Source: Mactra quadrangularis (taxonomy: Eukaryota > Mollusca > Bivalvia > Venerida > Mactridae). From it: a stretch of 64,000 bases of DNA. Location of the stretch: the NCBI GenBank assembly GCA_025267735.1, contig CM046303.1, positions 49,927,403-49,991,402 on the forward strand, in the 5' to 3' direction. Each line of letters starts with the position of its first letter. Within the stretch, counting starts at the first letter, position 1. The position numbers were made by a program, and so were the translations under genes. The notes below the pieces were generated by a model. It saw only the letters and a list, made by a program, of their open reading frames with translations, made no database searches and was not told where the DNA came from. Shown one piece after another: positions 3,359-48,000 of the stretch.

Positions 3359-4080
3359 AATGTAAAAGGAATTTTGATGACGTTGCCAATATTTTTGTTT
3401 GATGAATCATTTGTAAAGTGTTACAACTTTGTAAATTATCACTAAAGCTAAACTATCTACAAAAGGTGCTTTATGTATCGTTTCAAGTCTGCTTATTTTC
3501 TATAGTAGACTAAAACTGAGAATTGACCTGCTAGAATGAAGTACATGATAAATTGTTTGATTATACTGTTGACTGATTTGACTGATTTCAATACTAAATT
3601 CCCTCTTGTTATAAAATATTTGTGCTTTCAAAGTACTAAGATCAAATAAGAATTTAAAGCAATAAGTTCAAATTAGAAATCAAATTAATATGTTCAAATT
3701 GGATTTCAATGTAATAAACTTATTCAAAATGGTGGAATAACCTCTGTTTATTAAACAGAACTGTTCTGTTCTGTTTATCAAAAAGTGTCTTGTTTGTACA
3801 TTCTAACGCAAATTTATATAGCACCTAGTTAAAAATCGTTTCAATATTTTTTCTCATCTTTTGAAAATATTCTAACTTTAGACATAGTTGTTGTTTTAAA
3901 AATGCTAGCTACATGCTTACTTAAAAAACCACAAGGTTTGGACAAAAATGATTACAATAGGGTGGGTGGAAGGTATTTGCCAATATTATTTAGCAAAACA
4001 ATAACATTATTTGTTCTGACATAAACCTGTTGCGACAAGTGAGTGATTTGTTTAGGAACATCTAGAACCTGCTTAAATGT
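3359..4080. other. no gene seen
   Basis: AT-rich sequence. A small nested repeat of CTGTT/AACAG occurs near 3745-3780. Nothing else is recognised. Confidence 0.5.
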
Positions 4081-5735
4081 CCCTGTTGTTATTGTTTTTC
4101 CACTGTCTTTTTTCAAGTCAGAAACACCCTAGGATTTTATACTTGTTGTTATCAGAGCTATTTTTAAATTTAAACATATTTCCCTCTTTGTTGTCTTTGT
4201 TGTTTGGAAAATCTGTTTACTGTTGTTGTTTATGATATTTTTTTTAAATTTGTGTATGAAATTAGCTCAATGCAATTGTGTTTATAAGTACGGATTATGT
4301 AATTAATTTATAAAACCAACTTATGTTTAGAACAAAAAACATATGGCAAAAAATTCACGACATGTTTGTATAAAAGGAAATATTTGTATCAACCTTTAGG
4401 TTATATTTATGGCGTGCCTATCAAATTAATTACTAACTTGAGGTTGGTGACCTACGAAGTAATAACATTAGATCAGCAAAACTGATTAAGCATACATGTA
4501 TATCTGTATTGATTTGATATTAACAATGAATCACGGTATGATATGTTAAAGACGTGTGTAAGAATGTTGTTGTACGTGAGTGAACAAATAACAACAACTA
4601 AGGGTGTATTGGTTACCTTCATAACTGTAATACAGTACCGTGATGAAATAATCACGAACAAGTGTGAAATGAAATCTCCAAACTAAATAATTCAAAACGT
4701 ACATAATTTGCAGTCGTGGAACTCGTAGTTTTGTTTGCGGTATCGCACCCAAAAGCTTTTTCAGATTTGGTTTAACGTCGTATTCAACACATATTTAGGT
4801 CATATATACGACGGCTTGCTCTTCCTACTATAGGTTTCCTTGACACTTTTCTTTTACCAGTGCTAACTTACCCTACCACGAGGCCGACAACTCATGTGTA
4901 GGGTATGACCGCGACCGGGCTTGAACCAGCGATCTCCGGATTCGAAGTCAGACATGCTTACCACTACGCTACGGCGCGGCTTTTTTAAGATGTAGTTTAG
5001 TTTGAGGAATTTGGAAACGCTAGTCCTAAAACTGGCGAGATAGGCATTTTTCCCACAATGTGGGCTTGAAGAGTTACTTTACCGACAACATTAAAATGCA
5101 CCCTTAATTAATGCATATTTTTGTTAGATTTAGTCATACTTTTCGTAATACTAAATTGTTTACCGCATAATAAAACCCTTCGAGCTCGTAGACTTATAAA
5201 ATATATATGCATGGAAATCGGCTTGAATCAAAGCTAAATGCGTTATGCTGAAGCATGTATTAATAATTGAATTAAATTTAAACTGCTCTTCACGTTTCCT
5301 TTAATCCATTCATAACTTCTAAAAAACCTTTAAACTACATGTACATAAATGTTCGGTTTGAAACGTTATGGGGGAAATTATTAAAAGTATACAATGCATT
5401 ACATCTCAGATAATTATAGAAAAGTCTACCACTATTACATGAAAATATATATTTCAATAATTGCATTGTACCATCCTATAAAATATTGTTTATTCTTAAT
5501 AAATCTGCTATCTAATTAAATAAATATCATTTGTCTTAATTAGAGTTTTTGTATGTTTTTTTTCCTCATTATTGTAATGAATATAGTACTTAGTTGTGAT
5601 ATTTGTCTAATAATACGAAATTCTATTCCAGAAGAGTGCTAAAATATAATAATGAATGGCAATTCAATATAGGATTGTAAACGTTGACATGGTTTACTTT
5701 TGTGATACAAATGTAATAATGTTAAGCTTTTAAAT
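4081..5735. repeat. tandem duplication, copy 1 (1655 bp unit)
   Basis: The whole segment recurs immediately downstream at an offset of 1655 bp with only scattered substitutions and small indels. Paired landmarks include TTGTTATTGTTTTTCC at 4086 and 5741. The unit carries a SINE (4769-4980) near its middle. No coding frame is conserved between the copies. Confidence 0.92.
4769..4980 (-). mobile_element. tRNA-derived SINE, family 1, copy a
   Basis: On the minus strand, a tRNA-like head holds an A box (TAGCGTAGTGG, plus-strand 4961-4971) and a B box (GGTTCAAGCC, 4918-4927), the internal RNA polymerase III promoter. A body and the tail ending ATGACCTAAATATGTGTTG..ACGACGTTAAAC follow. The anticodon-loop position reads TCG but the anticodon stem is imperfect. 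This is therefore a retroposon and not a functional tRNA gene. Confidence 0.85.
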
Positions 5736-7393
5736 CCCAGTTGTTATTGTTTTTCCACTGTCTTTTTTCAAGTCAGAAACACCCTAGGATTTTGTTTTTG
5801 CTGTTATCAGAGCTATTTCAAAATTTAAATATATTTCCCTCTTTGTTGTCTTTGTTGTTTGGAAAATCTGTTTACTGTTGCTGTTTATGATATGTTTTAT
5901 AAATTTGTGTATGAAATTAGCTCAATGCAATTGTGTTAAATTAGTACGGATTATGATATTAATTTATAAAACCAACTTATGTTAAGAACAAAAAACATAT
6001 GGCAAAAAATTAACGACATGTTTGTATAAAAGGAAATAATTGTATCAACCTTTAGGTTATATTTATGGCGTGCCTATCGAATTAATTACTAACTTGAGGT
6101 TGGTGACCTACGAAGTAATAACATTAGATCAGCAAAACTGATTAAGCATACATGTATATCTGTATTGATTTGATATTAACAATGAATCACGGAATGATAT
6201 GTTAAAGACGTGTGTAAGAATGTTGTTGTACGTGAGTGAACAAATAACAACAACTAAGGGTGCATTGTTTACCTTCATAACTGTAATACAGTACCGTGAT
6301 GAAATAATCACGAACAAATGTGAAATGAAATCTCCAAACTCTATTAAATACTTCCAAATGTACATATTTTATAGTCGTGGAACTCGTAGAGTTTTGTTTG
6401 CGGTATCGCACCCAAAAGTTTTTTCAGATTTGGTTTAACGTCGTATTCAACACATATTTAGGTCATATATACGACGGCTTGCTCTTCCTACTATAGGTTT
6501 CCTTGACACTTTTCTTTTACCAGTGCTAACTTACCCTACCACGAGGCCGACAACTCATGTGTAGGGTATGACCGCGACCGGGCTTGAACCAGCGATCTCC
6601 GGATTCGAAGTCAGACATGCTTACCACTACGCTACGGCGCGGCTTTTTTAAGATGTAGTTTAGTTTGAGGAATTTGGAAACGCTAGTCCTAAAACTGGCG
6701 AGATAGGCATTTTTCCCACAATGTGGGCTTGAAGAGTTACTTTACCGACAACATTAAAATGCACCCTTAATTAATGCATATTTTTGTTAGATTTAGTCAT
6801 ACTTTTCGTAATACTAAATTGTATACCGCAAATAAAACCATTCGAGCTCGTAGACTTATAAAATATATATGCATGGAAATCGGCTTGAATCAAAGCTAAA
6901 TGCGTTATGCTGAAGCATATATTAATAATTGAATTTAATTTAAACCGCTCATCACGTTTCCTTTAATCCATTCATAACTTCTAGAAAAACCTTTAAACTA
7001 CATGTACATAAATGTTCGGTTTGAAACGTTATGGGGGAAATTATTAAAAGTATACAATGCATTACATCTCAGATAATTATAAAAAAAGTCTACTACTATT
7101 ACATGAAAATATATATTTTAATAATTGCATTGTACCATCCTATAAAATATTGTTTATTCTTAATAAATGTGCTATCTAATTAAATAAATATCATTTGTCT
7201 TAATTAGAGTTTTTGTATGTTTTTTTTCCTCATTATTGTAATAAATATAGTACTTAGTTGTGATATTTGTCTAATAATACGAAATTCTATTCCAGAAGAG
7301 TGCTAAAAATTATAATAATGAATGGTAATTCAATATAGGATTGTAAACGTTGACATGGTTTACTTTTGTGATACAAATGTAATGATGTTTAGT
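5736..7393. repeat. tandem duplication, copy 2 (1655 bp unit)
   Basis: Second copy of the unit at 4081-5735. Similarity ends at about 7393, where the sequence becomes TTTTTAATTAACGAAG and no longer matches. Copy 2 has small differences, including ATTAAATACTTCC for the shorter copy-1 text near 6340. They lengthen a chance open frame at 6199-6438 without creating a recognisable protein. Confidence 0.92.
6432..6643 (-). mobile_element. tRNA-derived SINE, family 1, copy b
   Basis: Same SINE as 4769-4980, carried inside the tandem duplication and not inserted independently. The tRNA head, A box, B box and tail all appear unchanged by eye. The matching flanks show that it was copied with its surroundings. 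Confidence 0.85.
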
Positions 7394-7822
7394 TTTTAAT
7401 TAACGAAGTAACGGTATTATTTATCAATTCGTTACACGGGTATTATATTTTTTATATACCAATTTACCAATCAGGTGAGAACTCGATCTAAAATGATTCG
7501 CTCGCCTACTCACTTATAGAAGATCTGGCTGTTATTAGGGTCACGTGCAGGTGACTTTTCTCATTATAAATCCTTGGCGCGGCCATAAGAGATCCTATAC
7601 GACAGCGGTCTATAGGATATCTGTTTAGGGAGATAGTCTTCTAAATTACTGGTACATGATGCAATAATTATATTATAACGAATTAAATCGTAATTAAATT
7701 GTGTAGCTGCTGCTGCTTTCATATTTCTTGACCAAGAAATGATTAGTGCTTATAAAGTATCTTCATCTTGTGTTAGTCTTATATTCTTGTATCCTAGATT
7801 TTTCTGGTTGAAGTTCGTGATA
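7394..7822. other. no gene seen
   Basis: Mixed-composition spacer between the tandem duplication and the next SINE. Nothing is recognised. Confidence 0.5.
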
Positions 7823-7874
7823 GTAAAGTAAAGTAAAGTAAAGTAAAGTAAAGTAAAGTAAAGTAAAGTAAAGA
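7823..7874. repeat. (GTAAA)n microsatellite
   Basis: About ten uninterrupted GTAAA pentamers. They form the 3' tail of the adjacent minus-strand SINE and are likely length-variable. Confidence 0.9.
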
Positions 7875-8190: not shown

Positions 8191-11100
8191 GCTGTGAAAC
8201 CGGACCTCAATAAAAACTCTGTCATATGAACAAAAGATATAAATTCAAAATTTCAAGTAATTACGTTATACATGTAGGATCAAAGATGTCAGATATTAAG
8301 ATACATGTATTAATTCGCTCTAGCCTGTTGTTTCATGTAACGATAATATATTTGTTCAAATAATCATTTGCGTAAATATGACTTTACAGGCATTGAAAAT
8401 TAGATTGATATAACTTCTTTATTTTGAACGGTTTGATTTTTTTTTAATTTATTAAACAAATGCCGAGTGACCATATCATAGAGATCTTCTGGTGTACAAA
8501 TATATATATCGTACTTGCAGTGAATTACTTTACAATGGAGAAGCATATTACATGCCGGTCTTGTAAAGCTTAAAACTAGTTCCAAATATAGGTTCATACT
8601 ATACAATTACCTTTTTTGCGGAAATGAAGGACATTTTTTAACTCAGTGACGGTATAAAAGTATTCTTTAATTTATGCTTTTTCGATATGTCATTGAATTT
8701 TCAAGCTGTTGAGTTTGCCTATAGAAAAACGGATAAACATTGCTTCTTTTGGCAAATATGAATGAGTTCATTAGCGTTTAGGACTGACGTTTATCGTAAT
8801 ACGAATATGCCCTTAAACACTCAATAAATGACATTAAATCGCTCATTTGGCATGGAAATGATTATTCTCCATGATATCGTCTCTACATATCGAAGCAGCA
8901 TTTATGTGAGTACTTCTACCATTGGGTTTATGAACTGATCTAAGTATGTCATCCAAATTTAATTAAGTACGTGCCTTCCTTTTAGTTAATTTATGTTTTA
9001 GGTGGTGATTATATCAATGTCCGATCAAGAAGGTGCTCTGCATAGTTAATGATCTTTGATATATCTTTGGGCTGTATAAGAACTTGTAACTGGATTATAT
9101 GGAAATCACACGTTGTCTATGTACGTGACGTTTTGCTAATGGACCAATTAACATACGTTTCTATTTCTTGTTTTAGTTAATTACAACGTGTTCGACGGAG
9201 ACAAGTTGTAGAGGATATTGTATTAATGATGACTCTATAAACGTCTGATAAATACATGATTACTGAAATCCTTTCTGCTTGCCACCAGGATATCCTGACA
9301 TAAGGTACGTGAGGAAAATATTGCAGGTAAGTTTTTTTTTTGGGGGGGGGTGATAGAGGTAACGCGTCTCCTGATAAATGTGAAGTGTTATTGAGGTAAG
9401 CGGTCAATCGGATAATCTAGTTCCTATTACCTTATTGTACCAATTTAGTGATTGCAATTTAGCTGTGGCTCAATAACGAAAGAAGGCGATGACTAAATCA
9501 AATGAGAGAGTCACAGGCCTTTATAAAGAACCTCATGGAAATTATGACTTATCCAATCTGAATATATCAGCAAGATTTTTTTCACAAGTAGAGTATATTT
9601 TCCATGTTAAACTAGTGAAAATACTTTTTACAAAGTTTGAAGATTTCTTTTTTTAATCTGTTCACCTCTATGGTCGGTTCAATATTGACCTCAGGGGTAT
9701 ATCTCAAAGCGGTTTAACTAATAACGCACAGTCTAACGCATGCACGGACGCCGGATAGACTGCTCACTGTTGTTCACATTCAGCACTTTATGTTTCGATT
9801 AGCTTAACATATTCACACTTTCTGTGTGAAAACAGAAGTACATAAGAAATAGTGCAATATGTTAATCAAATTAATTAAGTGAAGTCATACAAAAATGTCA
9901 AATGACATTGGTTTGTAGATATGTATATCAATATTGATTAACATCTGCAATGTCTATATCAGATATAAAAATTCTGTCTGATAATTATGCCCTAATCTGA
10001 CGTGGAATTAGGCAATACTTGACGTGAGTTCTCTTGATTCATCTTGGACGACCTTTGTCTGGATTGCATGTAATAGCATTGTACTTAAAACTGGCTTAAC
10101 ATACACGCAACATAAACTATATAGTAACAGAACAAATTGATATTACTTCATTGAAAATCCATGTACTGAATATCTCGAATACAAGCCAGTAATGAAAGAA
10201 ATGTCTTTCATTAGCAGACAAAACCAACAGCTCTTTGAATGTATATAGAATGCATGCGTTGAATAAATTCGATTTATCACACTTACATTGATAAGGGAAT
10301 GAACAGTCAAAGGTTATCTCCAAATTTGTTGAAAACTTCAAGAATTCAAAGACAATGCAAAGAGTAAGGCGCCTGAAAACAGCCCCTGTTGTATAAGGAA
10401 AAAAACGTCATGAGGTCTTGAGTTCAATTTTCTTTTATTCATATACAATGATTCAAACTGAATTTTGGAGAATTCAAATTACTTAAATGCATTGTTTAAT
10501 TGACACTTAAATGGCGATAGAAACCACAGTCTAGTCGACTAACCTTGGTCGATAAATTGAAACCTTACAAAACAAGAGTGGAAATTATTCAAATTAAAAA
10601 GATACAAACGTCAATTTTGGCTGTTCGTTAATTCGTTAATCAATGCGGTTTTGTGTTCACTTGTTGATGAATACCTTTGACCTCCTAGAGTGACAGACAC
10701 TTTAATAGATTTGTTTATTCTGATATTGGCAGACAGCTGTGGATATTTATGTTACAAAATATATTTCCAAATTTGAATTATGAAATTTGCGCATTGATTT
10801 TATCATTGAAAAACTTGGAGTGTTACCTAGGTTTGGGGAAACATAGTTATTGCTTCTGTTAGTGGTAGTTTTGTGACAATTGATTGTGATATACATTATG
10901 TTTACTGGTTATATCAAAGTCTCTTAATGTTTAGAACATGGCGTAGGTATATGCCTATTTCGTGATGTGAGAAATTAGCGCAACATTTGTATTTAATGTG
11001 TTCTAAGTGTATTGGCCGTATTATCATCTAATCGAATGTCAAACTAAGCGGGAGATATGGACCTCTTGCATTACGCTTACTTTTTTCAGAAACTTTTAAA

Positions 11101-13012: not shown

Positions 13013-13299
13013 ATTTTTCAATAAATGTGTTAAGTTCTTCAAGAGAATGATCCCAAAGCAAAAAAGCTGACTACTTTTCAAAAACTCCTCAAATTTCCCC
13101 ATGAAAAGTACAGTCTGCTATTACTTCCTTGTCTTAAATAATACATACAAGCATCTGTTCCATCCGTATGCGGTATATTGGTATAAAGTGAAGAGACATC
13201 AAGAGTTACCAAATACGTGTTGTTGCTTTGTAGTTTAATATTACGCAATTTGTTGATAAAATCCGTGGTGTCTTTAATATATGATGGCAATCTAAGCAT
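13003..13299 (-). pseudogene. Penelope-like element reverse transcriptase fragment
   Basis: Penelope-like elements are telomerase-related retroelements. The minus-strand frame from 13299 downward contains [15 protein letters not shown] and then [15 protein letters not shown], which matches the reverse-transcriptase motif with the first catalytic aspartate (the D in LDVSSLYTN). Further along the homology jumps frame twice: a block reading [10 protein letters not shown] (about 13072-13105), then LLWDHSLEELNTFIEKFN (about 13003-13060). The stretch that should carry the YxDD catalytic motif, just before LLWDHS, is missing. The fragment is therefore a dead internal piece with at least two deletions or frameshifts. 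No GIY-YIG endonuclease domain is seen. Family call from motif recognition; breaks seen directly. Confidence 0.85.
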
Positions 13300-13317
13300 A
13301 TGTGTTTAAGTATAAAT

Positions 13318-14580: not shown

Positions 14581-16991
14581 TAATTATATGTATTACAGTA
14601 CACACATTACTGTGATGAAAAAGTAGATTATAATACTTTTGATACGAAGTATTACAATTTATAAATTTACATAAAAAAGGGAAAGTCGAAATTAGACATG
14701 ACTGCCCATGAACAGGCATCTTTTATATGTCAGGTTTGAGGCGTTTATCAAAATACTTCAATAACCGGGTGTTACATGTGTTCATTTTCAAAACAGTTAC
14801 ACATGATATCAGCTTGACATGATAGACAAACCCAAAGTGTAATAAATGTTCATATAATCTAGGTCTAACTATTATAATATGCACTCAATCATTAACAAAA
14901 AATACGGTATGCATTATATTTATTGGCAATTAAAATATAATATTAAGGACATAAAACAATTCAGACTGTCAAGAATATCACTTTCATTATCGATATATGT
15001 TCCTAAAGTTATTGTTGAGCAGGATTATGTAGAGGTATATGCTTTTCATTTTATTTTTGCACTTAAGAAATTTATAACAACATATTGTCCTTTTGTCTTT
15101 ATTGTTAAATTCATGTTGGAGTATATTTAACATTACATCGCTTCATCTGCTTTACGCATAAATAAAACATTTTCAAAACAATGCCTCATTGGTACAATCG
15201 CACATAGATCTGTACGTCCTCAGTCGAATTCTGAATGTAAAGATGTGTGAATGCGGCGGCAAACATACATGTAGAGCTCGTAAATTTTGATAACATTAAA
15301 TTTTACCATCTTGATCCTTTAAGTTTGGTTGAATTATTATTAAATTTGACAGTTCATCATACCGTGCCACGTACCATGTGACTTTGCGTGTGATTTTTTA
15401 ATAACAAAACACGAAATATATTAAAATTTATAAATCGCATGCCTTTATACGTTATTTTACGTATTAAAGTGTATATGGATTCGGATAAATATATTCGTGT
15501 TCAATGAAACAACATTCAAACTGTATACCTCGCTCACTTTTAATTGCCTACAATTACTCGTATCTAATCTATTTAACAGTAAAACCTGAAGTCAATAGCT
15601 GCTGTATCATTTCAGTTATTTTCCCAAACTATGTACATTTGTAGTTTATGTCATATTATGACTCCTTATCTTGATGTATTAATTTTACATATGGATAATT
15701 CAATCATATACAATGAGAATACAATACACTGAATGTAAGATTTTTTTTATTTAAACGTTTACATAACAAATCAATAAAGATAAATCACATATGACAGGAG
15801 TGTTTTCGTAATAATAGTTTTGTGCTAATATATTTGCACAAAGAAAATAAATACATGTCGCAGTGACGTTTTTTTGACAATATAAATATCAACTATAACT
15901 CCGATGCTAGTAATGAATGTCAAAGTTTATAAATAAATATACATCTTTTAGATTTAAGAGCTTTTTTTCCTTGGTATAAATGTATCATTATTTTACAAGA
16001 GAATAAATGAATGCTAACCTCGATACGGCGGCGGAGTTCTCCTAACATCTTGATTTAAAAAAAAAATATTGATGTCAAATTTAATTCCATATCAAAATTA
16101 GTCCAATTATTACAAAAATGCAAATTCAATAAACTTGCGTGCACAAAATAAACAAGGTATGAAAATAACCTTAGAGCACCGGCACATAAACATGCATTTA
16201 AATCAGAATATAATGCAATATTTTCTAATTCCTGAACAAGGGGGTATATATTTCCTTATATTTTATTAGAGTAGTGTATCTGAGTTATAAAAGCCAACAC
16301 TAGATATATATTTAGATTGACATAAAATACTAAGTTGCAATTGGCTAAAAGATAATGCTTATAGTCAGAGATAAAGAGTTTATCATTCATGTAGGACCAT
16401 ATTTACAACTGTCCTTCGAGTAACGTCTTGGTACGCTTATATTATATTTTTATTATAGTTTTGGTTATCATAAATATTTTTTAATTGCCAATGTTACAGA
16501 AGCCAATTCTATACATGACTCACATGACTTCCTAAATCGCTTCAAAGTACTGTTTTATCATATTAAGTAGATTTCATTTTCTGATTTTTATGTTATCTGC
16601 AAATCCCTTGTTTTTCATAACATGGTCTGTGAGTTGAAAACCTCAAGCTAATCATTTTTTATGACTTGACGCATACGTAGAAGTCCATATTCAATGATTC
16701 CCTATGGAGATTAGTTACTTTTTTTATAACAAAAGTTATGTACCAAGATTGCATATAAAACGTCATCTGTTTAAAATTATTATATTATTTATAAATAATT
16801 GTATCTCTATTGTGCCAGTGATTAATTTTGTCAAATATAATAACATATTTATCATAATCATCATCCAACTCTTTCGTAAAGTTTTGTCCAATGTTTTATA
16901 TTACCCCCAACAGATTTATGCTAAACAGTTATTTTTTATATTCTGCAGTGAACGATCTCAGAAAATTTGTCGAAACATTTTTATCAATAAT

Positions 16992-17235
16992 AACACAGTC
17001 CGGAATACGTTTGCGAATCCGGAAATCTTGCAAACTTACTTTTTTTATTTTTCATCCGATTAATTTCAAATTTTCAATAAATGTAGATCTTCACATGGGC
17101 ATAACACCAGTAAACTTTCATCCAGATATCTTTACTATAAATATGTTTAATTTTAAGTCAAAAGTCAAAATTCCCATGGGAATCGGCAAATTCCCATGGG
17201 AGAAATGCTCTCCCATGGGATTTTCATGGGAGAAA
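16992..17235 (+). repeat. left terminal inverted repeat of 9.5 kb element
   Basis: About 245 bp, near-identical to the reverse complement of 26235-26479, with roughly half a dozen mismatches by eye. The outermost 30 bp contain TCCGGA twice (17000 and 17018 region), a possible transposase-binding repeat. The first part of the palindromic CCCATGGGA motifs falls within the repeat. A long open frame crossing this end (16891-17403) is a run-through of flank and repeat and not a gene. Confidence 0.9.
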
Positions 17236-17399
17236 AATGGGAATTTTCTCCCATATACAAATATGGGAGAAAATTCCCATTTTTTTCAAATTCATCTAAA
17301 CAAACATTTAGACACATACATGGATAGATCTATAAGTACATATCATTATTCCAAAGAAAAAATACATAGTTTGTCACTTTTAAAGCTTTTAAACACCAT

Positions 17400-17560
17400 T
17401 TAAGAATTCTCCCATATTATAAATGGGAATTTTCTCCCATGGGAGAATTCTCCCATTTAGAAAATGGGATTTCTCCCATGGGAGAATTCTCCCATTTCTG
17501 TATATGGGATTTCTCCCATGGGAGAATTCTCCCATTCTTTAAATGGGATTTCCTAACTGT
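17400..17560. repeat. subterminal array of nested palindromes, left
   Basis: Repeated units of ATGGGATTTCTCCCATGGGA followed by GAATTCTCCCAT, each about 40 bp. Both the CCCATGGG core and the GGGAGAATTCTCCC core are self-complementary, so single strands can fold in several registers. All units here carry CATGGG. Confidence 0.9.
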
Positions 17561-18166
17561 ATCCTACTTTCTATGTTTAACTTAGTCTATATACTGTTTG
17601 TAGCTAACATTGGCTTCACCCATAGATCTCGACAGGTGCACTAGGATTATCATTACAATGCATCATGTCTGGTCTATGAATTTCACCAAGATATTTCAAA
17701 TCATTCCCGATTTCACAAGACTTATTTGTCAAACCTTCAAGGCTTCAGTCCGGTATTTGTCATTTTGTTTGTTCATGTAAACATGTTTGTATCCGGTTTT
17801 TAACAGTGACACGTAGTTTTGTCGGTTTTAATCAGTAATACGTATGTTAATTCACATTTCTGCCAAGTATCAGTAATTTATTCCAATTATTTACTGTGAT
17901 ATTAACGATTTTCCAGCGAGAATTGTCACATATTGCAACTGTCCATTTTTAATTACTGTTTCCGGTGCGTTGCTATTAACAACGCTCTTTCTATTATACG
18001 GATCTATTATTCTAATCTACGGACATTTAGTATTTTAATGATTTATAAAATATTTAAGTGTAAAAACACCAGAAATCATCGTTACAAGGTTATTATTATA
18101 TTTCTTTTCCGATTTGATGTATTTTTCAGTATATTTTGCTGAATAATGGGCCGTTAAATTACTTAA
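17561..18166. other. element interior, no gene seen
   Basis: AT-rich interior of the 9.5 kb element between its left palindrome array and the LINE fragment. Nothing is recognised. Confidence 0.5.
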
Positions 18167-18631
18167 TTACTTCTGGAATATGCTTCAGTAATATGGTATC
18201 CACTCTACAAAAAAGAAATGCTAGCCATTGAAAATGTCCAGAGGAGAGCTACAAGAGCCGTTCGAAGTCTCCAAGGTCTTGACTACACGCACAGGTTATT
18301 AAATCTCGGCCTCCCTACACTTGAATACAGGAGAACAAGGGCTGATTTAACTCAAGTATATAAAATAATCAACAAGTTAGATATTATAGCTAATGAATTT
18401 TTACTACTAAACCAAAGATCAACAAGAGGTCATAATGTAAAACTCTTTAAACAAAGAGCAAATAGAAATGTTAGAAAAAATGCTCTAAGTCACAGAATAA
18501 TAGACACTTGGAACGGCCTGCCTAGCAGCGTAGTAGAGGCTCCAACATTGAACTCTTTCAAAGCCAGACTCAACAAAAACTGGAACATTCCCTGCAAATT
18601 TAGATCTACATGCTACCACCCCTATCAGTAA
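18167..18631 (+). pseudogene. LINE (non-LTR) reverse-transcriptase C-terminal fragment
   Basis: The open frame from about 18167 encodes LLEYASVIWYP, then VQRRATRAV, LGLPTLEYRR, TQVYKI, a TRGH..KL block and DTWNGLPSSVVEAP, and closes with NSFKARLNK before a stop at 18631. This order is the familiar C-terminal region of Jockey/CR1-type non-LTR polyproteins, downstream of the catalytic palm. A stop precedes residue 1 and all catalytic motifs are absent, so it is a 5'-truncated copy, the normal fate of LINE insertions. The first ATG is at 18218, but homology starts upstream of it. It lies inside the 9.5 kb element and arrived as a passenger. The frame is intact over ~150 codons, suggesting it is fairly young. 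Confidence 0.88.
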
Positions 18632-18780
18632 CCATAACACGTCTAAGTCTATATCTTAGTTTAAACAAATAGATTCATGCCGAAAATAGATGTACATAAT
18701 TTTAGATACTTGTTTTAACCTGTATATAACTCTATAAGTGTAAATGTATGAAAAGTAATTATAAAGTATCATCATCAAGA
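18632..18780 (+). mobile_element. LINE 3' UTR and tail
   Basis: Sequence following the LINE stop codon, ending at AAGTATCATCATCA (about 18767-18780). Short simple-repeat ends of this kind are common on non-LTR retrotransposons. The exact end is inferred, because no target duplication was identified. Confidence 0.5.
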
Positions 18781-18939
18781 TGACTGATATACATATCTTA
18801 TTGAAAAAACAATAGTGCCTGTACGAAAACCACAGAACAGTGTGTGCTGTAGTGAAAAACAGTTTTTTAGGGAAAACATATCCAAAAATGGCAAGAAGCA
18901 TTCAATGCTTAACTCAATGAGTATGTAGCCATTAACTAT

Positions 18940-19165
18940 ATGAACTATATGAACTAAATTAAGCGCAAATAGAGCGCAGTGCTGATGCAACATGTGACCT
19001 TTAGCATGACGGCGTAGCACAGTTTGTTGCACTGCTGCACTTTCGCGACGTTTGTTGTCCCTCTGATACTGTGTAGCACTTGCTGCACAGGGAGCACTAT
19101 GTAAGTCCAAGCCTGTGCCGCAGTCCATGAAATCAGCACTTACTCCCAAAGTATGTGCACATTGT
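18940..19165. other. GC-elevated unrecognised patch
   Basis: About 225 bp with clearly higher G+C than the surrounding element and repeated TGCTGCAC/GTGCAGCA words. Open minus-strand frames cross it (for example 18775-19149) but show no family motif that I know. It may be a decayed coding fragment or part of another repeat. Confidence 0.3.
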
Positions 19166-19344
19166 TCTTTTGTAGATTGAACTTAAAACTTTTTTGTCAT
19201 TTTGTTGCTTAGGCCTACTTTTCTAAATTATTTTTATAGATCTAGTAACTACGTATACTTCATTATTTAACTGGTATTGTTTGTTTTTTAAACCCTTTTT
19301 GACATTGTTGTACCAGGGATATTTCGCTAGGGATATTTTACTGG

Positions 19345-19630
19345 GCGGATACAAGACTTTTCCAGGGGGGGATGTAATATATTGAATCTAAAATTTCTTA
19401 TTGGTTATTAACAACGTTCCGCCATTCAAGGCTTCCTCAGATATGAACAACAGAGGGTATAAACAATATTAATAATGGAAATACATAACCATTTAACCTA
19501 TGTTAAGCACACAAGAAAAAATACTAGAAATACTACTTTAAAATGATTTACACTCAAGATATACACTAAATCGACAGGTACATTTTGGAGATTCTAGGGG
19601 GGGCGGACCCCTGACCCACCGCTAGATCTG
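19345..19630. mobile_element. possible small MITE with G-rich ends
   Basis: Starts near GGGCGGATACAAG..CCAGGGGGG and ends near GGGGGGGCGGACCCC..CTAGATCTGCC, whose reverse complement resembles the start (GGCRGATCTAG / GGCGGATACAAG). G-rich ends followed by a GGATC-type motif are typical of abundant invertebrate MITEs. The inverted match is imperfect and I could not fix a target duplication. Confidence 0.35.
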
Positions 19631-19722
19631 CCTATTCATGCATTGTAAGCCAGTCTTGTTATTTATTGATGTTGTAGCGTGTGAAAATATTTTGACATTA
19701 ATATATCTTTTAGAGGTATAAT

Positions 19723-20215
19723 AGGAGAGACCGGGGCTGGATGGTACACTTTTCATATTTATAAGTTTGTTTTAAGATGCTATATAATGCCAATGTGGTT
19801 TTAAATACCGGTAAGGTACAACACAACTCTATGTTATTGCGGTTTTGTAAGATTAAAAACATTTGAATGTTACCAAAGAAACAGAGGACATCGATCGTTT
19901 AATGAAACAATTTATTTGTCCCAACTTTTTCCAGTCTCGGGGCAGGTTGGTACAAGGCATAGGATAAGTTGGTGCAAGATAAAACCAGTGCTAATAGTCA
20001 TATTGTTAACTTGGAGACACTCATTTCATTTCCATGCTTGTACAGTAATAACTCTGAACAAATGCTATACTAAGTCCACAGGAGCTCTTAAGAGGGAATT
20101 TTCGTAGTATGATATAAAATGTCAAGCTCCTGTGCTCTGTCCTTAATACAATATTGATCATATGGTCTGTATCAACCTAGCTGTCCCGTGCACCAACCCA
20201 CCCAGTCTCCCCTAA
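19723..20215. mobile_element. MITE with ~26 bp imperfect TIRs
   Basis: The left end reads TAGGAGAGACCGGGGCTGGA then TGGTACAC. The reverse complement of the right end reads TAGGGGAGACTGGGTGGGTT then GGTGCAC. The same motif recurs inside as GTCTCGGGGCAGGTTGGTAC (about 19933) and AAGTTGGTGCAAG, as expected for subterminal transposase sites. There is no coding capacity. It is nested in the 9.5 kb element. The flanks are TA-rich and the duplication is unresolved. Confidence 0.6.
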
Positions 20216-23200
20216 ATATAATATTTCATGAGCGATAGAAAAAACTGAAAATTATTGATACATTATAAAAGAACTTAATTTTACATGTTTGATCTTGACG
20301 ACAACGATTATAAACAAATTAGTAATTGTTTTAGTAACTTTAATTCCGGAAGTAAAACTCTGTGCTTTGGGAACGAAACTCTGGGATGTTGTTTTTATGT
20401 CAAATTTCGTCAATTATTACAATCTAATGGATCTAACAAAATAAAGAAACTTTGTGAAAATGTTCATGTGATTTATAATTCATTTTACAAACTATAGAGG
20501 AAACATTAATCAACAATATTTTCTATTCTGGATGTCTAAAAAGTGAGGATGTTTTACATTGAAACTCATCAACTAGATGCCTATGGCTAGTATGAGTGAC
20601 AACAATCATGAACATTACCTGACGAAGAACATACTTTTGGTTTGAACTTTATATCGGACAAGCACAGAGGACTGAGTATGCATAGGTATGGTCCTTTATA
20701 TTTGCGACCTGTCTTTACATGTCTGAATTCTGTGCTTTGTCATATACAACATGATGAAAGTTGGTGATATTACTCATGTAACATTGAGGTAAGATCATTT
20801 CAAGGTTCTAATACTCTTATCATTTTTACTTCATATAAAGGATGGATCTAGAATGCTCATGTTAAAATTATAATTGGGAATCTGGAATTTATTATATTTT
20901 TGGAAGACCCTGTAATGACTGGACATGATCTTACATTATTTTATTTAGAAGGTCATAAGACATCATCATGATCATGTTATTTAATGAAAACAAGTCAGTG
21001 TGACTCAATTTACCTTGTACCTTATAGTCACTTCTGAAAGCCTTACTGTATTACATTTATACATCTTAACAAATTTTTGCTTTAATAAGAAGGTCTCTAT
21101 GAATTACTTAATCTACATGTACATTGCATCAGATAAATGACTTAAAGTGTTTTGTTTGTTTATAACCTTCTTATCTGAGACTAGATAACATTCACTCTAG
21201 GGGTCCTGCATAGGAAGGGACAGTTGGATTATATACACTGTTAGCTGATTGGCTGAGGTCTATAGTTACACTGTGATATCTAAGGGAGAAATCATATTTT
21301 TTCTTAAAAACCAAAACACTGAAAATACTAATTTGAATTACATGTTTTCACAGAGCATTTTATTATGAAGGCCTATAGATATATATCCGAGTCAGTAAAA
21401 AATCTTTATAGATTATGGAGTAGATGGGCACTGTTCAAAATATTATTTAATTTACATTATTTATGTTTTAGTCTTTAAATATATTAGATCTACATATTTA
21501 TAAAACAAGGTCATTTTTACAATAATTATAATACTATTTAAGGCGTTAAAAGTAAAGTACATAATTATATCCAAAATTTATCACTAGACTTATGATCAGT
21601 GCATTCAAAACAAATCAACTAAATAAATGCACTATGAACTTAATAATGATATATATTGTATGTATAATGTCAAAAGATCTTCTTGACTAAATCAAATGTA
21701 TAAAAAATCTGCAAATAACTTAGCAACTACCAATCTAATATGATATAATATATCAGTGGTAAAAGTCTACTACTCTCCATATATGTATTTTTATAACTTG
21801 GACCAGTGCCAAATAATAGAAAAGAACACATTGTATATAGCTAATGTAAGCATCATTTAAACTTTGATAGAGACTATATATATACATGTATAAAGATACA
21901 GACTATATATGACTAGCATAGCAAAGATCTGATAAGAGATATTGTTTTGTAAGAGTGTATTTATACATTAATATTTTGAGGCTGAAAGAAAACCCTATCA
22001 GTCTGATAGGAAAATTATATATTCATGTGTATAATATACATGTTATTATTTTCAATGCATGTACTTAATGAACAAATACTCAGAGAATGACTTTATATTT
22101 ACAGCATTTTATACAAATTACATTGCAGACAACTTGTATCTCATGATACCTCTGGATGATCATAATCATTATAAATAATCTTAAAATATATTAATGAATT
22201 TTCTTATTTACATTGATAATTCAGTAATTGCTCATAGATGACTATTATTATAATTTCAGTGATGTAGAAAATGAATTGAGTTTCTTTTTTGCATTGTTTC
22301 ATTTTTTTCTTTTGATTTTTACAACTACATACATCATTTATATACACATTATTATAAAATAACTAGTATTATGTTTTTGCTTTTTTCAAAATAAGTTTGG
22401 TGTAAATCTTAAATGCTGTATATCAAATTGAACAGACAGAATTGTAAATTACTAATAATAAATCTAATCAATTAACCACTGAAAGAAGAAGCTGTCAAAA
22501 TTGTTACTATGGCAACCAGCTGATATCCCAGGTTCAACAGTCTATTTATAGCTACAGATCTTAGATGAGATAAGCTGATTAAGACTAATTGTTTAATACT
22601 ATGTATAGATATACAGACTGTGTAATATAATGTCAGAGAGTAGATCTTATTTAAAGATAAAGCAATAGTTTAGTCTTATTTTAGCTACTATATTTATTTA
22701 ACTTATTGTTAGATAAACCCTATGATGATTAGACTGTTAGCCAATATGTGTTTATGAAAAACAGAACTTGCTCTCACAAACTTAGCAGAATATTATATTA
22801 TGCTATTATGTATAATTATTTTTTCTGATGAAACTAGAATAAAGTACAATGTATACTGATATGTATATAGATAAAATTGAATTTGTTCAGTGAACTATAG
22901 TGATAATGTCACCTGCAGAGTGTAAATATTGTCTTCATTGGCCTCTCCACAAATATACACTAAATAAAACATTTATTTTTTCTTGTCTGAAACAATAGAA
23001 GCACTTGATTGATACACTTATAAACTAAAATATTATCACCGAAATGCCCCAGACACTCCTGGTAATTGAAACGTTTGAAGTACATGGTTTTCCATACAGT
23101 AAAAGCTTCTGTAATTCTTCACTTGTTTTTTATAACATGAATTCCTGTATGCTTCTCCAGTAACAACTGAATAGTAGTTCAATTTGTGAATTGGTACACA

Positions 23201-23489
23201 TGAATCACGGTTAGGGTCAGATTGCCACTAGCTCAACAATCCACAGCCTTTATCTTTTTGATTACATTTTATAATTGAATCATTTGACTATTTCATTACC
23301 TCAACTTAAATTGTGTTAAATATATTTTGTAAATTTATCATGATTATGTTTTATTAAGTGTCCACAGTCACAACAGTGAACTACTGATTTGAATTGATTT
23401 TTTTACAAACCAAATCAGGTTTGTCTTACTTGTGTAAATAGTAGGCTTCTAGTACATTTAAAGGAGAAATTTACAAACATTGCCTTAAG
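20216..23489. other. element interior, no gene seen
   Basis: About 3.3 kb of AT-rich sequence inside the 9.5 kb element. No coding frame, RNA gene or tandem repeat is recognised. It is the part of the element most in need of a similarity search. Confidence 0.45.
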
Positions 23490-25562
23490 TTAATTCAAGC
23501 ACTAGCCAGAATAATCATGCTACTAGTGGGCTAGTTATAGTTAAGGTGAAGACTAATCTTGTAGGGAGTTATTATGCAAAATTACCTGAGAAAATATATG
23601 TATTTGGTTTTCAATAATTCCTGTATCTATGTATGCTAGTCCTGGAGTTAGGCTAGTGGGTTAAGTTGATGACTGCCATCTTAATTTTTTTCAGGCACTA
23701 GGTCCAATAATAATGTTATGAATTTCAAAGCAAAATCATTAGCGGTAGTTAGCTTGATCGTATAAATCAAGTAGATTTCCCAAGCCTGTATCTATGTATG
23801 CTAGTCCTGGGGTCAGGCTAGTGGGTTAAGTTGATGACTGCCATCTTAAATTTTCTCAAGCAGGTCCATTGATTATGTTATGAAGTTCAAAGCAAAATTA
23901 TTAGCTAGCCCGATTGTATGAATAAAGTAGATTTCACAAGCCTGTATCTATGTAAGCTTGTCCTGGGGTCAGACTAGTTGGTAAAGTTGATGACTGCCAT
24001 CTTAAATTTTCTCAAGCAGGTCCATTAATTATGTTATGAAGTTCAAAGCAAAATTATTAGCTAGCCTGATTGTATGAATCATGTAGATTTTTCAAGCATG
24101 TATCTATGTATGCTAGTCCTGGGGTCAGGCTAGTTGGTTAAGTTGATGACTGCCATCTTTAATTTTCTCGAGCACTCGATCAATTATTAATGTTATGAAG
24201 TTCAAGGCAAAATTATTAGCTAGCTTGATTGTATGATCAAGTAGATTTCACAAGAATTTCAGGCTAGTGGGTTAAGTTGATGACTGCCCTTTTTAATTTT
24301 CTTAAGCGCTTGGTCTATTATTTATGTTATGAAATTCAAAGCAAAATTTTCAGCTAGCCCGATTGTGTGAATCAAGTAGATTTCGCAAGAATTTATCTAT
24401 GAATGCTAGTCCTGGGGTCAGGCTAGTGGGTTAAGTTGATGACTGCCATTTTTAATTTTCTCAAGCACTAGGTCTTTAATTAATGTTTTAAAGTTCAGGG
24501 CAAAATTATCAGCTAGCCCAATTGTATTTATCAAGTAGATTTTACAAGCGTGTATCCACATTATGTATGCTAGTCCTGGGGTCAGGCTATTTGGTCAAGT
24601 TGAGGACTGCCATCTTTAAATTTCTCGAGCACTACGTCCATTATTAATGTTATGAAGTTCAAGGAAAAATTATCAGCTAGCCCGATTGAATGAATCATGA
24701 AGATTTCACAAGCCTGTACCTATGTATGCTAGTCCTGGGGTTAGACTAGTTGGTTAATTGATGACTGCCATCTTCAATTTTCTCAAGCTCTTTGTCCATT
24801 ATTAATGTTATGAAGTTATAGGAAAAATTATAAGCTAGCCTGATTGTATGAATCAACTAGACTTCACAAGCCTGTATCTATGTATGCTAGTCCTTGGGTC
24901 AGGCTAGTGGGTTAAGTTGATGACTGCAATCTTAAATTTTCTCATGCAGGTCCATTAATAATGTTATGAAGTTCAAGGCAAAATTATCAGCTAGCTTGAT
25001 TGTATGAATCAAGTAGATTTCCCAAGCCTGTATCTATGTATGCTAGTCCTAGGTCAGGCTATTGAGTTAAGTTAATGACTGCCATTTTTAATTTTCTCAA
25101 GCACTAGGTCTTAAATAAATGTTTTGAAGTTCAAGGCAAAATTATCAGCTAGCCCAATTGTATTTATCAAGTAGATTTTACAAGCATGTATCTACATTAT
25201 GTATGCTAGTCCTGGGGTCAGACTAGTTGGTTAAGTTGATGACTCCCATCTTTAATTTTCTCGAGCACTCGGTCCATTATTAATGTTATAAAGTTTAAGG
25301 CAAAATTATTAGCTAGCCCTATTGTATGAATCAAGTAGACTTTACCAGCCAGTATCTATGTATGCTAGTCCTGGGGTCAGGCTTGTTGGTTAAGTTGATG
25401 ACTGCCAACTTAAATTTTTTTCGAACACTAGGTGTATTTTTAATGTTATGAAGGTCAAGGCAAAATTATCAGCTAGCCCAATTGTATTTATCAAGTAGAT
25501 TTTACAAGCCTGTATCAATGTATGCTAGTCCTGAAGTCAGGCTAGTGGGTTAAGTTGATGAG
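23490..25562. repeat. ~160 bp satellite array, 13 monomers
   Basis: The word CTAGTCCTGGGGTCAGGCTA marks the monomers. It occurs at 23636, 23801, 23957, 24113, (deleted at ~24262), 24406, 24570, 24729, 24887, 25043, 25206, 25365 and 25525, giving spacings of 156-165 bp. A degenerate monomer lies at about 23500-23630. Some monomers carry shared variants, such as CTCAAGCACTAGGTCTT with ACATTATGTATG, that recur every four monomers (24406/25043, 24570/25206, 24729/25365; 636-637 bp). This suggests a higher-order unit. The array lies wholly inside the transposable element. Confidence 0.93.
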
Positions 25563-25924
25563 TGGTATAAGTGATAAAATAATAGTGTATCTACTCCTTA
25601 TTTTTTATGAAACTTAAAATCTAGGGAAGTCTGTATTCAAGTTATTGCATTGTGCTCATCTACAAAATGTAATCATAGAAGCAGGTTAACATATTTACAT
25701 TTATGTAATATATTTACAACCAAAAACTCATTATAAGTATTGTATTTTTTAAATGAAAACTTCATTTAAGAAATGAAAAAGAATCAACTGTAAGCATTTA
25801 CTATTTTAGACTTTAAAATCATTCAAAAAAAATACAAGCCGTCTTTTGAAACTTCAGCCCAATATCAAATTTCCCTTATATCTTTGCAATAGTTTTTCAT
25901 TGTGAATATTCTACCATTGAAAAA
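25563..25924. other. element interior, no gene seen
   Basis: AT-rich spacer between the satellite and the right palindrome array. Confidence 0.5.
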
Positions 25925-26085
25925 ATTGGATTTCTCCCACGGGAGAATTCTCCCATTTTGAAAATGGGATTTCTCCCACGGGAGAATTCTCCCATATGCG
26001 ATATGGGATTTCTCCCACGGGAGAATTCTCCCATTCTGAAATATGGGATTTCTCCCACGGGAGAATTCTCCCATTCTAAAATATG
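25925..26085. repeat. subterminal array of nested palindromes, right
   Basis: Four units like those at 17400-17560, but all four carry CCCACGGG where the left array carries CCCATGGG. The within-array uniformity implies that each array has been homogenised separately. The open frame encoding repeated NGRILPWEKS (25865-26074) is a by-product of the repeat. Confidence 0.9.
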
Positions 26086-26234
26086 GGAATTTTTTATTTT
26101 TGGACTTTTTAAATATTTTTTTTCACATTCTTGTTGAAAACATCAGTATGATGCCAAATCTGTATTTTTACCTTGTTGTGACCTTTATTAATGGAATTAG
26201 AAATGGGAGAATTCTCCCATGGGAGAAAATTCCC

Positions 26235-26479
26235 ACATTCTAAATGGGATTCCCATGGGAGAGCCATTCTCCCATGGGAATTTGCTGATTCCCATGGGAA
26301 TTTTGACTTTTGACTTGAAATTAAACATATTTCTAGTAAAGATATCTGGATGAAAGTTTACTGGTGTTATGCCCATGTGTAGATCTACATTTATTGAAAA
26401 TTTGAAATTAATCGGATGAAAAATAAAAAAAGTAAGTTTGCAAGATTTCCGGATTCGCAAACGTATTCCGGACTGTGTT
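26235..26479 (-). repeat. right terminal inverted repeat of 9.5 kb element
   Basis: Reverse-complement partner of 16992-17235. It ends CGTATTCCGGACTGTGTT and is followed directly by the TAAT duplication. Confidence 0.9.
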
Positions 26480-26509
26480 TAATATATAATTATGCATATT
26501 GAGTTATAA

Positions 26510-33589: not shown

Positions 33590-36028
33590 TATTACAGTAC
33601 ACACATTACTGTGATGAAAAAAGTAGATTATGATACTTTTGATACGAAGTATTACAATTTATAAATTTATATTAAAAAGGGAAACTCGAAATTAGTCATG
33701 ACTGCCCATGAACTGGCATCTTTTATATGTCAGGTTTGAGGCGTTTATCAAAATACTTCAACAACCGGGTATTACATGTGTTTTGTCGTATTAAAACAGG
33801 AAAGATTTTCAAAACAGTTACACATGATATCAGCTTGGCATGATAGGCAAACCCAATGTGTAATACATGTTCATATAATCTAGGTCTAACTATTACAATA
33901 TGCACTCAATCATTAACAAAAAATACGGTATGCATTATATTTATTGGTAATTAAAATATAATATTAAAAACATAAAACAATTCAGACTGTCAAGAATATC
34001 ACTTTCATTATCGATACATGTTCCTTAAGTTATTGTTAAACATGATTATGTAGAGGTATGTGATTTTCATTTTATTGTTTGCACTTAAGAAATTTATAAC
34101 AACATATTGTCCCTTTGTCTTTATTGTTACATTTATGTGGGAGTATATTTAACATTACATCGCTTCATCTGCTTTACGCATAAATAAAACATTTTCAAAA
34201 CAATGCCTCATTGGTACAATCGCACATAGATCTGTGCGTCTTTAGTCGAATTCTTAATGTAAAAATGTGTGAATGCGGTGGCAAACATACATGTAGAGCT
34301 CGTAAATTTTGATAACATTAAATTTTACCATTTTGATCCTTTCAGTTTGGTTGAACTATTAAATTTGACAGTTCATCATACCGTGCCACGTACCATGTGA
34401 CTTTGCGTGTGATTTTTTAAATAACAAAACACGAAATATACTAAATTTATAAATTGCTTGCCTTTATACGTTATTTTACGTATTAAAGTGTATATGGATT
34501 AGTATAAATATATTCGTGTTCAATGAAACAACATTCAAAATGTATACCTCGTTCACTTTTAACTGCTTGCAATTACTCGTATCTAATCTATTTAACAGTA
34601 AAACCTGAAGTCAATAGCTGCTGTATCATTTCAGTTATTTTCCCAAACTGTGTACATTTGTAGTTTATGTCATATTATGACTCCTTATCTTGATGTATTA
34701 ATCTTACATATGGATAATCCAATCATATACAATGAGAATACAATACACTGAATATAAGATTTTTTTATTTAAACGTTTACATAACAAATCAATAAAGATA
34801 GATCACATATGACAGGAGTATTTACGTAATAATAGTTTTGTGCTAATATATTTGCACAAAGAAAATAAATACATGTCGTAGTGACGTTTTTTTTGACAAT
34901 GTAAATACCAACTTTAACTCCGATGCTAGTAATGAATGTCAAAGTTTATAAATAAATATACATCTTTTATATTTAAGAGCTTATTTTCCTTGGTATAAAT
35001 ATATCAGTATTTTACAAGAGAATAAATGAATTTTAACCTCGATACGGCGGAGTTCTCCTAACATCTTGATTTTAAAAAAAATATTGATGTCAAATTTAAT
35101 TTCATATCAAAATTAGTCCAATTATTACAAAAATGCAAATTCAATAAACTGGCGTGCACAAAAAAAACAAGGTATGAAAATAACATTACAGCACCGGCAC
35201 ATAAACATACATTTAATTCAGAATATAATGCAATATTTTCTAATTCCTGAACAAGGGGGTATATAATTCCTTAGATTTTAATAAAGTAGTGTATCTTAGT
35301 TATAAAAGCCAACTCTAGATATATATTTAGATTGATATAAAATACTAAGTTGCAATTGGGTAAAAGATAATGCTTATAGTCAGAAATAAAGAATTTATCA
35401 TTCACGTGGGACCATATTTACAACTGTCCTTCGAGTAACGTCTTGGTACGCTTATATTATATTTTTATTATAGTTTTGGTTATCATAAATATTTTATAAT
35501 TGCCAATGTTACAGAAGCCAATTCTATACATGACTCACATGACTTCCTAAATTGCTATTAAATACTGTTTTATCATAAGTAGATTTCATTTTCTGATTTT
35601 TATGTTATCTGCAAATCCCTTGTTTTTCATAACATGGTCTGTGAGTTGAAAACCTCAAGCTAATCATTTTTATGACTTGACGCATACGTAGAAGTCCATA
35701 TTCAATGATTCCCTATGGAGATTAGTTACTTTTTTTATAACAAAAGTTATGTACCAAGATTGCATATAAAACGTCATCTGTTTAAAATTATTATATTATT
35801 TACAAATAATTGTATCTCTATTGTGCCAGTGATTAATTTTGTCAAATATAATAACATATTTATCATAATCATCATCCAACTCTTTCGTATAGTTTTGTCC
35901 AATGTTTTATATTACCCCCAACAGATTTATGCTAAACAGTTGTTTTTTATATTCTGCAGTGAACGATCTCAGAAAATTTGTCGAAACATTTTTATCAATA
36001 ATATATAATTATGCATATTGAGTTATAA

Positions 36029-47610: not shown

Positions 47611-47787
47611 AAAAAAAAGTATTACATTTGATAAATATTATACAAGATGTAATTACGTCACACGGACAGCTATAACAATGGTGGCATTTTAAAAATTGAA
47701 CAACACGGTATGTAAACATACTAATTCAGTAACCGCTTCAAGAACAAAATTGAATGTTAAAATATAATATTACCACATATAATATTA

Positions 47788-48000
47788 CCGTCGCATTCAA
47801 CACATATATAGGTCATATACACGACGGCCAGCTCTTTCTACTATAGGTTTCCTGGACACTTTTTCTATCACCAGTACTAACTTACCCTACCACGAGGCCG
47901 ACAACTCATGTATAGGGTATGACCTGCCGCGACCGGGATTCGAACCCGTATCTCCGGATTCGAAGTCAGACATGCTAACCACTACGCCACGGCCGCGGCT
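47788..48000 (-). mobile_element. tRNA-derived SINE, family 1, copy c
   Basis: The best preserved family 1 head. The minus strand begins AGCCGCGGCCGTGGCGTAGT; B box GGTTCGAATCCC; then CGGTCGCGGCA closes a nearly complete acceptor stem. The tail is CGTCGTGTATATGACCTATA followed by TATGTGTTGAATGCGACG. The sharper B box than in copies a and b suggests it is closer to the source sequence. Confidence 0.88.

Follow-up and report, generated by a model that had tools for sequence, protein, structure and literature searches.

The 64,000-nt stretch of the Mactra quadrangularis genome analyzed here (the window; assembly GCA_025267735.1, contig CM046303.1, positions 49,927,403 to 49,991,402, contig C11 in our numbering) contains at 16992–26479 a 9.5-kb element with inverted ends, which a first-pass annotation of the sequence had described as a single mobile insertion. 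The element lies in one of two duplicated regions of the window, and the other region, called copy B, is without it. Relatives of the element elsewhere in the genome are given L numbers, and among them L058, on the same contig, served as the best comparison copy. The features of the element and of its empty counterpart are as follows, with the evidence for each.

16988..16991, no strand: left target-site duplication TAAT (single TAAT in empty copy B)
16992..17227, plus strand: left terminal inverted repeat (TIR), beginning AACACAGTCCGGAATACG (AACACAG) (end alignment; outer 31 bases present 205 times in the genome)
17155..17290, no strand: subterminal CCCATGGG palindromes of the left end (DNA fold z −10.8 versus shuffles)
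17403..17552, no strand: left palindromic array, 39-bp unit (repeat detection; fold z −9.1)
17550..17556, no strand: junction of a deletion of ~2.5 kb relative to L058, with TAA common to both breakpoints (alignment to L058)
18163..18166, no strand: TTAA repeat left of the private insert (comparison with other copies)
18167..18958, plus strand: private 792-bp insert, not part of the family, holding the frame 18167–18631 (copy comparison)
18959..18962, no strand: TTAA repeat right of the private insert (comparison with other copies)
23620..25561, plus strand: satellite array, ~12 units of ~160 bp, part of the family body (repeat detection, copy comparison)
25898..25901, no strand: CATT, counterpart of the L058 target site in an older family member, undisturbed in the window element (flank alignment of L058)
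25921..26088, no strand: right palindromic array, 39-bp unit (fold of 25920–26069, z −7.1)
26244..26479, minus strand: right TIR, ending ...CTGTGTT (end alignment)
26480..26483, no strand: right target-site duplication TAAT (comparison with copy B)
35999..36002, no strand: empty site, one TAAT, in paralogous copy B (flank alignment)

The alignment of the two ends with each other showed that the TIRs are 96% identical over 236 nt, with 6 mismatches within the first 225 bp. Copy B, in which the element is missing, aligns with both flanks of the insertion, at 94.7% identity for 2.4 kb of the left flank and 95.5% for 4.1 kb of the right one, and it has one TAAT where the occupied copy has two. The near-identical ends, the TAAT duplication and the exact pre-insertion site that the first-pass annotation had reported were all recovered at these positions. 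Because the two duplicated regions are ~95% alike, the element is present in only one of them, and copy B runs on uninterrupted through a single TAAT, the insertion is later than the regional duplication, as had also been proposed, unless an element was precisely excised from copy B, of which no sign was seen.

The other copies of the family were sought in the 979-Mb assembly, which comprises 447 contigs. The outermost 31 bases of the element have 205 exact matches in the genome (106 forward and 99 reverse), while the same 31-mer read backward, used as a control, has none. When the left 244 bp were used as a DNA query, the 40 matches scored, from 1011 candidates, were 96–100% alike. From the 39 of these 40 that lie outside the window, all of them among the matches most like its left end, 20 copies were fetched at 10 kb. 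The body of the window element is common to 19 of these 20, in the same order; L073, which is counted among the 19, has its first part rearranged with inverted pieces. Hence, other copies of the ends, on whose existence the first-pass proposal hinged, are abundant in the genome. In the twentieth copy, L068, family sequence is limited to about the first 602 bp. This copy was considered as an autonomous partner and rejected, as these ~600 bp are joined to a stretch that recurs as the ends of another element and then to reverse-transcriptase frames; for its frame 7517–7843 the protein collection contained a single relative, and Pfam nothing. The other element, X, is itself present in high copy number: L068:1011–1470 is one of its ends, and the genome holds 14 opposed pairs of such ends of at least 454 bp, spaced 2.7–12.8 kb, six of them at 4.5–4.8 kb.

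The positions of the exact 31-mer ends were taken from the first 100 of the 205 places. Among these 100, neighboring ends within 25 kb formed 18 pairs, of which 17 were convergent and one was divergent. The convergent pairs span 3.9–22.7 kb with a median of 12.9 kb, and some may be mispaired where copies nest, as on contig C3, where an 18.9-kb pair encloses another, inexact end. For the 19.6- and 22.7-kb pairs, the slices sampled at the ends belong to a single diverged type, and the 8 kb that were read of the 19.6-kb copy consist of the same gene-free body and satellite, with no frame longer than 94 amino acids. Of 88 further listed ends, 60 were probed with 300 bp located 650–950 bp inward, and 52 of these matched L058 or L073, both members of the family, and represent several arrangements of its subfamilies; L126, counted among the 52, matches mainly through a small dispersed repeat. 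At three other places the outer 18 bases match yet base 19 differs.

Nine of the fetched copies were extended, and both ends were reached in three of them, while two more copies were fetched as end pairs. Their lengths and target-site duplications are listed below.

L058: 11,222 bp, duplication CATT
L064: 11,132 bp, duplication TATA
L074: 12,704 bp, no duplication
L084: 3,851 bp, duplication CCAT (fetched as end pair)
L085: 8,256 bp, AGCT/AACT, one mismatch (fetched as end pair)

Together with the window element, which is flanked by TAAT, an exact 4-bp duplication was found in four of six two-ended copies (the window copy, L058, L064 and L084). The four bases that precede 23 left ends are rich in A and T; the last of them is T in 16 of 23, and TTAA occurs once. 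L058 also provides a second empty site. Its left flank corresponds to positions 8549–8910 of the element and its right flank resumes at positions 8905–9488, which shows that the target of L058 was itself an older member of the family.

The comparison with L058 also bears on the age of the window copy, which had been described as young. The two copies, which lie on the same contig, differ by 39 mismatches in ~8,730 aligned positions, gaps apart (~0.45%), and the window copy therefore moved recently. The similarity of its own two ends provides no dating evidence. The left end of the window copy is 99.2% like the left end of L058 and 96.9% like its right end, and both copies show the same difference of ~3% between left and right; this difference is therefore inherited, and it does not date the insertion in the window. 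A further copy, L056, is 99.83% identical to L058; within 8.7 kb the two are separated by 4 mismatches and 11 gapped bases. When a 35-mer carrying the base of the window copy at left-end position 100 was sought, exact matches were obtained at only three places, in the window copy, L056 and L058, all of them on contig C11 (38.15, 38.79 and 49.94 Mb). These matches suggest one recent lineage, which perhaps spread by local hopping.

The window copy also has features of its own. It is without the ~2.5 kb that L058 has directly after the left palindromic array, a segment of which the stretch 1001–2500 is covered by 17 of 22 aligned copies. In turn, its 792-bp insert is absent from all 20 of the copies that were fetched at 10 kb. 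The frame 18167–18631 in this insert resembles, by eye, what we take to be the C-terminal part of the protein of a long interspersed nuclear element (LINE). The LINE piece named in the first-pass annotation is thus present as a LINE-like frame, but it belongs to the private insert and not to the body of the family. The miniature inverted-repeat transposable element (MITE) named there is in turn visible as a stretch with inverted ends near 19733 and 20213, recognized by eye only; as this stretch is also found in L056 and L058, it is not private to the window copy.

Two other components that had been noted are the satellite and the palindromic arrays. The satellite at 23620–25561 has a period of ~156–165 and 12.3 units. 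A two-unit probe had 268 matches in the genome (40 of 283 candidates scored). On the five contigs for which every exact end was listed (C1, C2, C3, C6 and C10), the satellite matches were grouped by eye from the listed rows into 16 sites, with C11 and C12–C19 left out of the count, and 12 of the 16 are at most 4 kb from an exact end. Units of the satellite motif number 10–18 in six copies and 11 in the window element, with none elsewhere in the window. Because most of the counted sites are close to exact ends, and its motif units are found in copies of the family but not elsewhere in the window, the satellite is carried by the family.

The palindromic arrays lie near both ends, on both sides of the body, and their 39-bp units consist of CCCATGGG and GAGAATTCTC palindromes. 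As single strands, the arrays fold much better than shuffled sequences (z −7 to −11), as palindromes would. Subterminal repeats occur in other transposons, and by analogy with these the arrays might be guessed to bind a transposase.

The absence of a visible transposase, also stated in the first-pass annotation, was borne out when the window element was translated in six frames with X at stops, as no Pfam match was obtained at E ≤ 1. Scanned singly, frames of the window element gave two matches, both below cut-off: the LINE-like frame matched HSDR_N at E 0.0078, and the other match was to DUF19 at E 0.19. Six-frame scans of L058 to 10 kb and of L061, from the second subfamily, gave no Pfam family above cut-off; one match in L061, at E 0.61, was far below it. 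Frames of at least 125 amino acids from L066, L071 and L072 also gave none (a Nucleotid_trans match in L072, E 0.024, is below it), and in the extra segment of L062, two frames out of six were scanned, with nothing in Pfam. No frame of at least 110 amino acids was located in the bodies of L056, L058, L059 and L064; those of this length were confined to the ends or, for L056, lay in sequence foreign to the family. A frame of L056 with a match to HTH_Tnp_4 below cut-off was rejected as a candidate, since it lies beyond a break in the satellite; the next 5.3 kb have no likeness to the family and are therefore taken for a separate insertion. Substitutions in 22 copies aligned to L058 showed no three-base periodicity above the threshold used. 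Hence, no transposase of the family was found in the copies that were read, which belong to a minority of the 205 ends; three of these copies were scanned with Pfam in six frames, and for the others the search was based on the length of the frames or on a selection of them. The body is not a recognizable gene, and a gene with short exons of an unknown family is possible. In public collections, a 16-mer of the end matched one viral and 45 prokaryotic contigs, but none of these 46 had a further match at E ≤ 1e-3, so the matches were attributed to chance, and a 26-mer of the palindromic array matched no viral contigs.

Taken together, these data make it very probable that the window element is a recent insertion of a giant, gene-free, non-autonomous family of DNA transposons, which is likely mobilized in trans. 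The first-pass view, in which the element is large, young and non-autonomous and transports satellite DNA, agrees with the 205 exact ends, the body common to 19 of 20 copies and the ~0.45% distance from L058. The regular 4-bp duplication, the inverted ends and the clean empty sites suggest a cut-and-paste reaction by a DDE-type transposase. This enzyme would be supplied in trans by another element, and it may bind the AACACAG ends together with the palindromic CCCATGGG arrays just inside them and make staggered cuts, 4 bp apart, at A/T-rich targets. The satellite would be dispersed as a passenger of transposition, and the lengths of the copies would be changed later by internal deletion, inversion and nested insertions.

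Several observations weigh against this explanation. No autonomous partner was found, which leaves movement in trans a proposal. The sample is skewed to left ends like that of the window, with 100 of the 205 places listed, so that rare or diverged autonomous copies could escape it, and Pfam may not hold the relevant transposase family. The two-ended copy L074 has no duplication. Four of the 16 satellite sites, of which C10 has two and C2 and C3 have one apiece, are more than 4 kb from any exact end; these may have ends with a changed 31-mer, or they may be free arrays. Finally, 8 of the 60 sampled ends had no family match: L096, L101, L104 and L138 match nothing in the comparison set, and neither do L136, which is single-copy apart from a 61-bp weak match, L117, which by eye reads like a Tc1-type transposase frame, and L110, by eye a tandem repeat, while L140 matches only another repeat.

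The body could alternatively be a decayed giant autonomous element, whose transposase gene was lost or diverged past recognition, rather than a passenger around borrowed ends. The conservation of the body over ~11 kb and the diverged subfamily with inverted, shuffled segments (L073, L147) would fit such an origin. However, the four well-preserved copies with frames of at least 110 amino acids only in the ends or in non-family sequence, the lack of any Pfam match above cut-off and the lack of codon periodicity make it a possible but doubtful explanation. A more far-reaching proposal, that the family is an undescribed lineage at the level of a superfamily, consisting of giant (11–23 kb) coding-free transposons that are still moving, conserve a gene-free body because the palindromic arrays near the ends and parts of the body are needed for transposition, and are the genome's delivery vehicle for the satellite, seems unlikely to us. 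Large non-autonomous TIR transposons with satellite cargo are a known kind of element, and it is the size, the recent movement and the lack of coding capacity that are unusual here.

To our knowledge, rolling-circle elements such as Helentrons produce neither long TIRs nor target-site duplications, let alone 4-bp duplications with exact empty sites. All of these are present in this family, which makes a non-autonomous Helentron with central satellite repeats, as in oyster, very improbable, even though the ~160-bp tandem repeats here are close in length to the repeats of oyster HINE elements, mostly 140–180 bp (PMC7492417). A segmental duplication or assembly artifact is hardly conceivable. The insertion does lie in a 95% duplicated region, but the copies are on many contigs and differ in their flanks, and each of four copies has an exact 4-bp duplication of its own.

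The family has the TIRs common to dispersed copies that define class II, cut-and-paste elements, and the short duplication of constant length that goes with them (4 bp, exact in four of six copies, with one mismatch in one, and missing from one). A 4-bp duplication and AA...TT ends fit several superfamilies, and none is assigned. Short duplications are also found in the Academ group. The TTAA-targeting Kolobok and piggyBac elements were rejected because the duplications are TAAT, CATT, TATA and CCAT and TTAA precedes only one of 23 left ends; piggyBac also has CC...GG termini (PMC10045372), while the termini here are AA...TT. Kolobok and KolobokP, which occur in molluscs, have RR...YY termini (PMC9587614), a pattern that AA...TT follows, and the 4-bp duplication agrees with the 3–5 bp of KolobokP, whose solo units have duplications of 3–4 or 4–5 bp (PMC9587614). 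However, ordinary Kolobok inserts at TTAA, and KolobokP has long terminal direct repeats and oyster families of 1.7–4.7 kb (PMC9587614). Here the ends are inverted, and direct matches between left and right are confined to the palindromic arrays.

The Drosophila virilis foldback element Tetris is also non-autonomous and linked to satellite DNA; its inverted ends are long, it lacks a conserved coding frame, and an autonomous partner has not been found for it (PMC4079207). Long inverted ends, tandem repeats and the lack of a coding frame are thus shared with a Mutator-type foldback, but this assignment was rejected, since Tetris has duplications of 8–10 bp, against 4 bp here. In addition, parts of Tetris itself were building blocks of a satellite (PMC4079207), while here the satellite is located within a body of ~11 kb. 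The Cg_HINE elements of oyster, which are non-autonomous Helentrons, similarly disperse short satellite-like arrays of ~160 bp, but they are described with subterminal repeats and a 3′ palindrome (PMC7492417), in contrast to the long TIRs and 4-bp duplications of this family. No such element was found among the literature titles and beginnings of abstracts that were listed, although this does not prove that none has been described.

Non-autonomous DNA transposons are mostly short. The 11-kb gene-free body, copies up to 99.8% alike, self-nesting and satellite cargo make this family a direct system for the study of satellite dispersal and of the size limit on cargo that is mobilized by an unlinked transposase.

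The rest of the window contains other repeats. A head-to-tail tandem duplication of ~1.66 kb (4073–5733 and 5730–7399) has copies 96.4% alike, and each of them includes a stretch 88.5% like a tRNA-bearing repeat at 47785–48001. The latter is likely a tRNA-derived short interspersed nuclear element, with an Rfam tRNA match at 47925–47996. On the minus strand, a frame at 13081–13305 weakly resembles a reverse transcriptase (RVT_1, below cut-off at E 0.039) and by eye is Penelope-like.

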